Shown: positions 18,257 to 20,445 of the stretch, one piece after another | Layout of the letters: every line of letters begins with the position of its first letter | Numbering within the stretch: position 1 is the stretch's first letter | The notes under the pieces: model-generated | The model's database searches: none | Told to the model about the DNA's origin: nothing | What the model saw: only the letters and a program-made list of their open reading frames with translations | Translations under genes and position numbers: made by a program | Virus record (IMG/VR): IMGVR_UViG_3300020448_000054 | Coordinates: 1-20,445 of that record | DNA length: 20,445 nt | Strand: one strand, 5' to 3' | Source: a virus

Positions 18257-19441
18257 TTAAGCGTTTGCAGGGTATGAAGTACCGAATGCAGCGTTACCAG
18301 TTGAACCAGTAGCAGCTCCAGCGATAAGTTCTACACATGCAGCAGGATTCAAGAAGTCTGCACCCATAGCCATGCGACCTAAGATCACATCACCTTGGTA
18401 GACAACTGAAACGTCGCCAGAAGTTACCTGAACCTGTGGTCCAATAGCTTCTACAACACCAGCAGCTTCTTTCTGGAAGATCAAACCACATGAGTTAGCA
18501 AAGTCAGAACCATTACCATAGTTACCGTTAATACCAGTAACTGAAGCTCTAGCATCTTCTGCTCCTTCACCTATGAATGAACCTGTGTTTCCGGGATCTG
18601 CGATACCGGGGTTAGTTGCTGAGGCAGTACCGTACTTAGTACCATAGTTTCCAAAGAACGGAATGTTCATGGACTTGTAGATCTTGATACCAGCAATCTC
18701 AACTACGCCTTGTCCAGACTGTAAAGCTGTTCCTTGTGCGTCACGGTTGATTAGACCAGATGTGATTACACCAGAACTTACAGTGTTTATAAGACTGTAG
18801 TATTGACGAGGGTTTAGAACGGCTACTCTGCCGTCAGAGCTGACTCCTTTTTCGTCAAGAGCAGCAGCAGCATCATAGAAAGCATCTACTAATTTAGCAG
18901 CATCGTAAGCTTCTGTAGCGTTACCTGTACCTACTCTGATCTGTGTACCGCCGGGCTCGACGAAGTTTGTTTTAGAAACTGGAGAAGCTTGACGTGCTCC
19001 CTTCGCAATTTGACGGAAGATAAGTCTGTCGTACTTCTGAGCAAGAGCATATCCAATCTTCTTAGATATTTCTCCTCTCAATTCATAGTGTGCTAGTGTT
19101 TCATCTAGCTCATAAACGAACGCTGAACTGATTAATAGGTCATCGCAAGTTATGGTTTTTTCAGCAACTGGAGGTGCTCCGTCGGAGTTACCCATGATGC
19201 TGTTGCCGGGTGTATGGAACTCGGCTTTTGTGTGTCCAGTGTAAACGAACTGTAAAGATTTTCCATTTTTAAGAGTTCTCTTCATAACGAGATCCCTTGC
19301 TATCGCATTGTGTTGGAAGCCTTTAAACATTTCTCCACTGAACAATTTAAGGTAGAGTGCTCTAGGGTCAGTACCACCATTCAGCGAACCCGGACGGGTT
19401 AACTGGGCTAACTGAGAGCTACCTGTATTTTGTTGTGCCAT
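18257..19441 (-). CDS. Major capsid protein, T7 gp10-like
   Basis: A 394-residue HK97-fold capsid protein of the T7 type. Recognisable parts are the N-terminal SLNGGTDPRALYLKLFSGEM and FKGFQHNAIARDLVMKRTLK with GKSLQF after it (the N-arm and E-loop region), LISSAFVYELDETLAHYELR, and GRVAVLNPRQYYSLI in the P-domain/A-domain core. It lies between psbA on one side and the tail tube genes on the other, the arrangement of marine cyanopodoviruses. A long structured leader precedes it, and a strong terminator follows. No Shine-Dalgarno sequence precedes the ATG (the upstream bases are TTTAACCATAAACA), surprising for what should be the most abundant virion protein. There is no sign in the sequence of a 10A/10B-type extension before the terminator. 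Confidence 0.95.
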   Translation of the reverse strand: MAQQNTGSSQLAQLTRPGSLNGGTDPRALYLKLFSGEMFKGFQHNAIARDLVMKRTLKNGKSLQFVYTGHTKAEFHTPGNSIMGNSDGAPPVAEKTITCDDLLISSAFVYELDETLAHYELRGEISKKIGYALAQKYDRLIFRQIAKGARQASPVSKTNFVEPGGTQIRVGTGNATEAYDAAKLVDAFYDAAAALDEKGVSSDGRVAVLNPRQYYSLINTVSSGVITSGLINRDAQGTALQSGQGVVEIAGIKIYKSMNIPFFGNYGTKYGTASATNPGIADPGNTGSFIGEGAEDARASVTGINGNYGNGSDFANSCGLIFQKEAAGVVEAIGPQVQVTSGDVSVVYQGDVILGRMAMGADFLNPAACVELIAGAATGSTGNAAFGTSYPANA

Positions 19442-19629: not shown

Positions 19630-19643
19630 CTACTTGACTACTC
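19594..19643 (-). ncRNA. Candidate three-way-junction RNA overlapping the peptide stop
   Basis: A closing stem GAGTAG (19643-19638) with CTACTC (19600-19595) encloses two hairpins: GTCAA-GTAGT-TTGAC (19638-19624) and GAGAGG-TGCAATT-CCTCTC (19618-19600), the second resembling a tRNA T-arm with its 7-base loop. The 5' closing strand is part of the last codons of the 17-residue peptide ORF (CGA GTA GTC AAG TAG), so translating ribosomes would open it. It is too short for a tRNA and has no anticodon arm. It is a proposed structure only; I do not recognise a named family. Confidence 0.4.
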
Positions 19644-19683
19644 GTGTGTAAGACACGCCACGATATACGAAAGTAACTTTCAT
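19630..19683 (-). CDS. 17-residue YRGVSY peptide downstream of the glutamine riboswitch
   Basis: A short frame, ATG (19683-19681) to TAG (19632-19630), encodes MKVTFVYRGVSYTRVVK. GGAG (19693-19690) stands 6 bases before the ATG, one of the few good ribosome binding sites in the window. The peptide MK-x-T-x-x-YRGVSY matches what I recall of the small proteins encoded after Downstream-peptide RNAs in marine picocyanobacteria, and resembles the opening of the cyanobacterial DUF4278 family. It is too short for normal ORF calling. Its function is unknown; a regulator of nitrogen metabolism, such as a small inhibitor of glutamine synthetase or a related enzyme, is one possibility but is inference. 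Alternatively only the act of translating it matters, through the RNA fold that overlaps its stop. Confidence 0.75.
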   Translation of the reverse strand: MKVTFVYRGVSYTRVVK

Positions 19684-19698
19684 CGCTATCTCCATATA

Positions 19699-19750
19699 CC
19701 TAGACCCCGTTCCATGCCTAGGATTCATGCGTCCCGGTTGGGATGAACGG
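19699..19750 (-). promoter_or_regulatory. Glutamine riboswitch, Downstream-peptide (DP) type
   Basis: On the minus strand CCGTTC (19750-19745) pairs with GAACGG (19712-19707) as P1. It encloses the hairpin TCCC-AACC-GGGA and the conserved-looking single strand GACGCATGAATCC. CCTAG (19722-19718), inside P1, pairs with CTAGG (19703-19699) outside it, giving a pseudoknot. The words CGTTCA-CC, GGGACG, TAGG and GGAACG in this order match my memory of the glnA/Downstream-peptide glutamine aptamers described in marine cyanobacteria. The pseudoknot strand ends 5 bases before the GGAG of a 17-residue peptide ORF, so control of translation initiation is likely. The structure is seen; glutamine binding is inferred from the class. 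Confidence 0.82.
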
Positions 19751-19759
19751 ACGTGGTTG

Positions 19760-19779
19760 CCAGTGTCGGGTGACACCGG
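19760..19779 (-). other. Strong hairpin between the 42-aa ORF and the riboswitch
   Basis: CCGGTGTC-ACCC-GACACTGG on the minus strand is an 8-bp stem with one G-U pair and a 4-base loop, 14 bases after the stop of the 42-residue ORF. No U-run follows, so it is not a standard terminator. It could be an RNA processing site, a 3'-end stabiliser for psbA mRNA, or part of a promoter region. Confidence 0.55.
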
Positions 19780-19793
19780 AGATGATAAAGATA

Positions 19794-19922
19794 TTAGTTA
19801 TCAGAGTTATCAGAGTCAGAAAGTTCTTTATCAGTTTCTTTCTTTTTTTCCTCTTCTTCATAAAAGCCATAACGGGTGACGCTTGCTTTACCGAAGCAAC
19901 CTCCTTCAGATTGCTGTGACAT
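19794..19922 (-). CDS. 42-residue ORF coupled to psbA, unknown function
   Basis: ATG (19922-19920) overlaps the psbA TAA as TAATG and the frame runs 42 residues to a TAA. The protein opens [20 protein letters not shown], then has a strongly charged run YEEEEKKKETDKE, and ends in an acidic Ser/Asp/Asn tail (SDSDNSDN). It is hydrophilic throughout, with no membrane segment and a single cysteine (C9), so it is not a high-light-inducible protein, the usual psbA companion in cyanophages. The stop/start overlap is the same device used by several genes in this operon, which supports its reality. I do not recognise a family. AGGA precedes the ATG by only two bases, so translation probably depends on re-initiation after psbA. 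Confidence 0.6.
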   Translation of the reverse strand: MSQQSEGGCFGKASVTRYGFYEEEEKKKETDKELSDSDNSDN

Positions 19923-20445
19923 TATCCTATTGCAGGAGCAGTCAAAGCTACTGTTGTAGACTCAGTAGAAGCTAAGTCAAGTGGGAAGTTATGTGCATTT
20001 CTTTCGTGCATTACTTCCATACCTAAAGACTGTCTGTTAAGAACATCAGCCCATGTAGGAATTACATTTCCACTAGCATCAACAACTGATTGGTTAAAGT
20101 TAAAACCATTTAAGTTGAATGCCATTGTGCAGATTCCCATTGAAGTTAGCCATATGCCAATAACCGGGAAAGCACCAAGAAAGAAATGTAAAGAACGAGA
20201 ATTATTGAAAGACGCATATTGAAATATTAGTCTACCGAAATAGCCGTGAGCTGCAACGATGTTATAAGTCTCTTCTTCCTGACCAAATTTATAGCCATAA
20301 TTCTGTGACTCCTGTTCAGTTGTTTCTTTAATGATTGAAGATGTAACCAAACTTCCGTGCATAGCAGCGAAAAGAGATCCACCGAATACCCCAGCAACAC
20401 CGAGCATGTGGAACGGATGCATAAGGATATTGTGTTCTGCTTGGA
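19922..20445 (-). CDS. psbA: Photosystem II D1 protein, C-terminal half (start beyond the right edge)
   Basis: The frame enters from the right edge at ...[20 protein letters not shown] and ends at ...LTAPAIG, covering about residues 187-359 of D1 in standard numbering. Visible key residues are H190 (partner of TyrZ), H198 (P680 chlorophyll ligand), H215 and H272 (non-haem iron), S264 (QB site), and the manganese-cluster ligands E189, H332, E333, D342 and A344, with H337. Cleavage after A344 would remove the tail [15 protein letters not shown]. All are intact, so the protein should be functional. It replaces host D1, which turns over rapidly in light, keeping energy supply going during infection. 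The DE-loop [16 protein letters not shown] is of the cyanophage/marine picocyanobacterial kind. The gene lies just before the capsid region, as in other cyanopodoviruses. Confidence 0.97.

Follow-up and report, generated by a model that had tools for sequence, protein, structure and literature searches.

Type 2 glutamine switches activate expression when they bind glutamine; in marine picocyanobacteria they are located upstream of DUF4278 genes (PMC6316151). The switch of these host homologues is of the ON type and probably translational (PMC6316151, PMC6698751). In the published fold, P1 is the inner hairpin, the pseudoknot is CGUU/AACG and P2 is the outer helix (PMC6698751). DUF4278 is similar to the N-terminal part of IF17, an inactivating factor of glutamine synthetase, and IF17 can function without this part (PMC6316151). 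The taxon entry for the Downstream-peptide motif in the table of the 2010 paper is "Cyanobacteria, marine". In the present analysis, the Rfam family of this aptamer (RF01704, Glutamine-II) was present in 41/41 Prochlorococcus genomes sampled, with 1–6 matches each. Among the ORFs behind these matches were MTLIYRGQKYVQNKEAAKKQHNELTYRGKAYTS and one of 57 aa with three YR-type repeats, both of which passed Pfam DUF4278, and some other host ORFs behind RF01704 were without YRG.

In marine phages, published glutamine riboswitches include those of the Glutamine-I class (glnA, RF01739) in cyanomyoviruses and pelagiphages (PMC9964418, PMC9004378), and glutamine riboswitches of T4-like cyanophages are mentioned in paper introductions. 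The Glutamine-I switches are likewise glutamine-sensing RNAs, but their aptamer class and downstream genes differ from those of the T7-like cyanophage Glutamine-II element described here. A riboswitch putatively controlling psbA is stated to be known in a cyanophage (PMC9004378), for which the cited reference 71 is a review of T4 late transcription. Neither the micropeptide nor a Glutamine-II element of T7-like cyanophages was described in the literature searched; an earlier mention is possible, as the 2011 and 2018 primary papers lay outside the search.

Further glutamine-type aptamers were observed in other viral sequences. A type-I-like aptamer, CGTTCA..CGCAAGTAAGTCGCGGAACGG, was located just 5′ of a 50–55 aa ORF of phrog_504 (313 phage records) in S-SM2 (L453), S-RIM2 (L454) and many of the loci L002–L121. 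At the start codon of this ORF, GGAACGGAGCGTTC could fold into a competing hairpin, and L453 and L454 had no Rfam match at cut-off. Tandem glutamine aptamers preceded two-YRG ORFs in the viral contigs L041, L113, L107, L037 and similar ones; some of these aptamers matched RF01739, and one two-YRG ORF passed Pfam DUF4278. Contig L037 also contained a PhotoRC-II RNA (RF01717) at 1021–1116.

Source region and identity of the aptamer

The window is the whole 20,445-nt stretch of DNA that was analysed (IMG/VR record IMGVR_UViG_3300020448_000054). Its psbA–capsid stretch (2246-base query) was closest to Prochlorococcus phage P-GSP1, with 81.5% identity over the whole query, followed by P-SSP7. On the basis of these matches, the stretch was assigned to the late region of a T7-like cyanophage, read on the minus strand. 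According to the ORF list, psbA was followed on this strand by a 42-aa ORF and the aptamer, and then by a 17-aa ORF and the capsid gene. The 3′ part of psbA (D1; 19922..20443, minus strand) was recognized from its translation and from blastn matches to the annotated psbA of P-GSP1 and P-SSP7. The major capsid protein gene (18257..19441, minus strand) was an ORF matched by annotated capsid genes, among them P-SSP7 gp10. The ORF separating psbA from the aptamer had a phrog_23119 match (E 1.2e-4), the function of which is unassigned. A strong hairpin, CCGGTGTC-ACCC-GACACTGG, was found 5′ of the aptamer at 19779–19760 on the minus strand, and several close relatives have the same hairpin. The preliminary description had placed the element between psbA and the capsid gene. 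It does lie in that interval, but its immediate neighbours are the 42-aa ORF before it (19922–19794) and the 17-aa ORF directly after it (19683–19630).

All 4227 Rfam families were searched against the window with cmscan, and the sole match at E ≤ 1 was RF01704 at 19752–19698 on the minus strand. The match covered model positions 1–60 of 60 and scored 50.4 bits against a gathering cut-off of 33 (E 9e-10); the E value was 2.1e-13 when RF01704 was searched alone. The probable glutamine riboswitch that had been proposed at 19699–19750 was thereby recovered as a full-length family member, and the sequence strings named in that proposal are present in the window. A covariance model, R1, was built from the 22 distinct phage aptamers of alignment A1. 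R1 scored the window, itself one of its training sequences, at 69.6 bits (19749–19697).

The fold followed the published structure. The P1 hairpin, TCCC-AACC-GGGA, occupied 19732..19743 (minus strand), and compensatory changes were found in 4/4 pairs, with 100% of cells paired among the 22 phage aptamers. P2 was formed by CCTAGGC (19722–19716) and GTCTAGG (19705–19699); it spanned 19699..19722 (minus strand), enclosed the 3′ strand of the pseudoknot and had compensatory changes in 6/7 pairs, with 95.5% paired. CGTTCA (19744..19749, minus strand) was the 5′ strand of the pseudoknot, assigned from structure 6QN3 (PMC6698751), and its CGTT paired with AACG at 19711–19708. The helix labels of the preliminary description were therefore interchanged: the strands it called P1 belong to the pseudoknot (CGTT/AACG), and its pseudoknot is P2 (CCTAGGC/GTCTAGG).

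Over the whole of A1, 98% of cells were paired, and compensatory changes occurred in 10/16 pairs. The observed covariation score was reached by 0/500 shuffles, and changes on both sides were present in 10/11 pairs of P1 and P2. The pseudoknot CGUU/AACG and the long-range C19:G41 pair were present, 100% paired and invariant. Because it is invariant in A1, whose seeds were picked by a pattern including CGTTCA and GGAACG (i.e., both of its strands), the pseudoknot yields no covariation evidence. The bases contacting the ligand in 6QN3 (C1, G18, C39, G40 and their neighbours) were identical in the window wherever they could be mapped by hand on PMC6698751. A covariance-model match above the cut-off and compensatory changes in relatives were two of the checks that the preliminary description had named for a Downstream-peptide aptamer inside a cyanophage late region, and both came out in its favour. 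Judged from its sequence and fold, the window element is a Glutamine-II (Downstream-peptide) aptamer, a new phage member of a known family.

The phage copies share with the picocyanobacterial RF01704 elements the full-length model match, P1, P2, the pseudoknot, the ligand-contact bases and a short downstream YRG ORF. Unlike these elements, the phage copy lies in a late operon, and it has a two-base deletion in the CGCA-UG linker relative to the Rfam consensus. Moreover, the phage aptamers differ from the picocyanobacterial ones by CGTC directly upstream, which abuts the 5′ end of the aptamer at 19750..19753 (minus strand), and by an ORF reduced in many phages to one YRG repeat of ~17 aa. CGTC was near-invariant: of the 74 distinct phage upstream sequences, 73 had C at −4, 73 had G at −3 and all 74 had T at −2, and the motif was not seen among the host loci listed. 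CGTC could pair with GACG on the 3′ side of P1.

The micro-ORF as constant partner of the aptamer

The 17-aa ORF, MKVTFVYRGVSYTRVVK, encodes a DUF4278-like micropeptide at 19630..19683 on the minus strand, and its length falls within the 17–100 aa of the short ORFs that Glutamine-II aptamers precede. Its Shine-Dalgarno sequence, GGAG, was located at 19690..19693 (minus strand), and the relatives show the same position class. A micro-ORF with the YRGxxY motif was found close behind the aptamer in 84/84 phage loci with an aptamer upstream of the capsid gene, and its start was mostly 23–29 nt past GGAACG. ATG, GTG or TTG starts were accepted in this search and YRG was required; the requirement cost no locus. 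The distance from the aptamer to the capsid start varied from ~230 to 1390 nt in these loci, with several genes intervening in 9515-10a and NATL1A-7. The distance from the psbA end to the aptamer varied from ~12 to 1380 nt, and one locus overlapped its estimated psbA end. Because the micro-ORF was present in every locus while the capsid and psbA distances varied, the constant partner of the aptamer is the micro-ORF, neither psbA nor capsid.

The preliminary description had overlooked this ORF and suggested that infection was coupled to host glutamine by a sensor between psbA and the capsid gene. Read in this way, the riboswitch would gate the capsid gene or psbA via a polycistronic late mRNA, and the micro-ORF would be incidental. 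The psbA–aptamer–capsid order is indeed common, and in many phages the aptamer starts 12–13 nt past the psbA stop. This explanation is nevertheless improbable in view of the fixed micro-ORF with its conserved protein sequence and of the variable distance and whole genes inserted before the capsid gene. In addition, no terminator-like site was found near the aptamer in the window, and the capsid gene has its own conserved leader RNA, including in phages without a full aptamer. A sigma-70 scan of the window gave no informative site, and a direct-repeat search showed no obvious phage promoter among the repeat families listed.

The capsid leader, a second covarying RNA, was located between the micropeptide and the capsid gene, at ~19643–19533 on the minus strand of the window, and also formed the capsid leaders of L122–L214. 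Its layout was a hairpin, GGGAGCACCTCAGAGTCGGACTCCC, or a T-arm, followed by TTGGC..., a UACG-loop hairpin, GATACC, CCGTCTAGACGG and a GATAGA-loop hairpin. Among 27 aligned leaders, the first hairpin had compensatory changes in 7/7 pairs, with 94.7% paired, and the second helix in 2/4, with 97.2% paired. Hairpins with UNNG-type loops were found in 40 of 41 sequences and hairpins with GAUAGA-type loops in all 41, in a search that looked for these hairpins. A pattern search for the leader returned 80 stretches. Of these, 77 immediately preceded a capsid gene, and a contig end truncated the remaining three. The leader matched no Rfam family, either at the family cut-offs in the scanned isolates or in the window, where the threshold was E ≤ 1. 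As a guess, the leader may take part in the processing or stabilisation of the capsid mRNA. In a simple scan, the first hairpin was a tRNA-type T-arm in 28 loci and a CACCTCAG hairpin in 67. The T-arm element of the window clade (19643–19595, minus strand) had acceptor-like GAGTAG/CTACTC and no anticodon arm, and ARAGORN found no tRNA in the window. A complete tRNA-Gly was observed at the T-arm position in NATL1A-7, and similar T-arm sequences preceded the capsid gene in Syn5 (L457) and P60 (L458).

The reading frame of the micro-ORF is conserved as protein. The YRG motif and the Y three residues on were invariant in 61/61 distinct cores, and their codons varied synonymously. The pN/pS ratio was 0.45 in frame, against 0.98 and 1.37 in the two alternative frames (61 cores; counts uncorrected for relatedness). 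The micro-ORF is under purifying selection. These results bear on the alternative that the micro-ORF encodes a regulatory leader peptide, the translation of which, rather than the product, controls a downstream RNA such as the tRNA-like element or the capsid leader. A length of 17 aa is leader-like, the end of the micro-ORF overlaps the tRNA-like element in the window clade, and in some phages that element or the capsid leader starts at the micro-ORF stop codon. A leader peptide is still unlikely, given that the motif is retained despite synonymous change, that other phages have an ORF of 34–38 aa far from the capsid leader and that the hosts retain the YRG motif in proteins of 33–57 aa. A peptide that functions as a product is the preferred reading.

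The lengths of the phage micro-ORFs were ~17 aa with one YRG repeat in many phages and 34–38 aa in others. The 17-aa peptide resembles one repeat of the Prochlorococcus DUF4278 proteins behind RF01704. It had no Pfam match and was shorter than the length limit for DUF4278 scoring. The 34–38 aa forms matching Pfam DUF4278 (PF14105) scored 15.1–24.5 bits against a gathering cut-off of 25.3, and some had no match. Because the longer phage forms match DUF4278 mostly below the cut-off, the phage peptide is classed by sequence as DUF4278-like, not as a DUF4278 member. A match to phrog_5049 (E 0.018) was not counted, since it arose only with a lysine-padded form of the short peptide. The Prochlorococcus DUF4278 genes (e.g., PMM1846; PMC6316151) share with the phage cassette the riboswitch class, the YRGxxY-type motif and a comparable spacing to the start codon. 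Their proteins of 33–57 aa have two or three repeats and pass the Pfam cut-off, whereas the phage peptides have one repeat and fail.

Proposed mechanism of the switch

It is quite likely that the Glutamine-II riboswitch is a translational ON switch for the DUF4278-like micropeptide, and that the peptide is a minimal mimic or competitor of host DUF4278 proteins. Glutamine binding and the ON direction of the phage copies are taken by analogy from the literature on the host homologues, and an ON switch acting on translation would fit both the position of the aptamer and the host precedent. A plentiful supply of L-glutamine would stabilise the pseudoknot and P2. This stabilisation would make the Shine-Dalgarno sequence usable, so that the 17-aa peptide would be made. 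In nitrogen metabolism, the peptide would most likely imitate, in minimal form, the glutamine-responsive DUF4278 proteins of the host or compete with them.

The exposure of the Shine-Dalgarno sequence was explored by folding. A possible sequestering hairpin, GGTATATGGAG (19700–19690) with TTTCGTATATC (19672–19662), spans 19662..19700 on the minus strand and shares two G with P2. In this candidate hairpin, 85.5% of cells were paired, and 27 double-change cells were observed versus 7.2 in shuffles; RNAalifold gave no consensus for it. In the short-peptide phages, the Shine-Dalgarno sequence can pair with the VYRG codons. In a comparison with synonymously recoded sequences, which gave a mixed result, the native Shine-Dalgarno sequence was less exposed than the resampled mean in 55/73 loci, mostly of short-peptide phages, which are mutually related. 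When the aptamer was enforced in folding, the mean unpaired probability of the Shine-Dalgarno sequence was 0.276 versus 0.267 for free folding, with no clear release.

Occurrence among cyanophages and biological meaning

R1 was applied to 73 loci, some of which had supplied training sequences; these loci had been chosen as isolates or through their capsid gene, and not through the aptamer. Scores of 49–75 bits were obtained in 63/73 loci. Another six (L198, L208, L185, L200, L213 and L195, with S-SBP1 and S-CBP3 among them) had partial aptamers of 21–35 bits. Nothing was found at E ≤ 1 in L160, L189, L196 and L210, and L160 and L189 have <1 kb of upstream sequence. The cut-off of Rfam RF01704 was passed in 10/13 psbA-bearing cyanopodovirus isolate regions, namely P-GSP1, P-SSP7, P-SSP3, 9515-10a, NATL2A-133, P-SSP10, S-RIP2, S-TIP37, S-CBP1 and NATL1A-7, and was not reached in S-SBP1, 7B11-B and S-CBP3. 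The psbA-bearing S-CBP4 had an aptamer by R1 (48.5 bits). No R1 match was found in the whole genomes of Syn5 and P60, which have no annotated psbA, or within the 9.4 kb searched of P-RSP2. Nearly all psbA-bearing T7-like cyanophages have the cassette, across many podovirus genera. The cassette may be tied to the presence of psbA; the psbA-less phages may instead represent a separate lineage.

In L195, L200, L198, L185 and L208, other sequence replaces the 5′ half of the aptamer; its 3′ half is kept, as is the YRG ORF. The sequences of these replaced halves suggest recombination inside the aptamer. The six partial aptamers would agree with a decaying host-derived remnant that has no current role. 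Such a remnant is highly improbable and disfavoured in view of the many compensatory changes in P1 and P2, the near-universal aptamer and the purifying selection on the micro-ORF; a functioning switch is the reading retained here.

The aptamer family itself was already known; the conserved viral cassette is the more interesting feature. A family of ocean cyanophages carries, beside psbA, an RNA glutamine sensor of host type, which most likely turns on a ~17-residue protein resembling proteins of the nitrogen-replete host. As a more tentative proposal, somewhat less probable than its opposite, a metabolite-gated module is near-universal in psbA-bearing T7-like cyanophages, in which the glutamine sensor switches on a minimal one-repeat micropeptide; depending on how much glutamine the infected cell contains, this effector would act in trans on the nitrogen metabolism of the host, or on its photosynthetic metabolism. 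The psbA-bearing T7-like cyanophages, P-SSP7 included, serve in the laboratory as models of auxiliary metabolic genes. The fixed micro-ORF is a candidate output of the glutamine sensor, and the phage peptide would be a natural, minimal form of the Prochlorococcus DUF4278 proteins, which are uncharacterised. The presence of such a sensor next to psbA in nearly all of these phages would imply that they monitor the nitrogen status of the host during infection.
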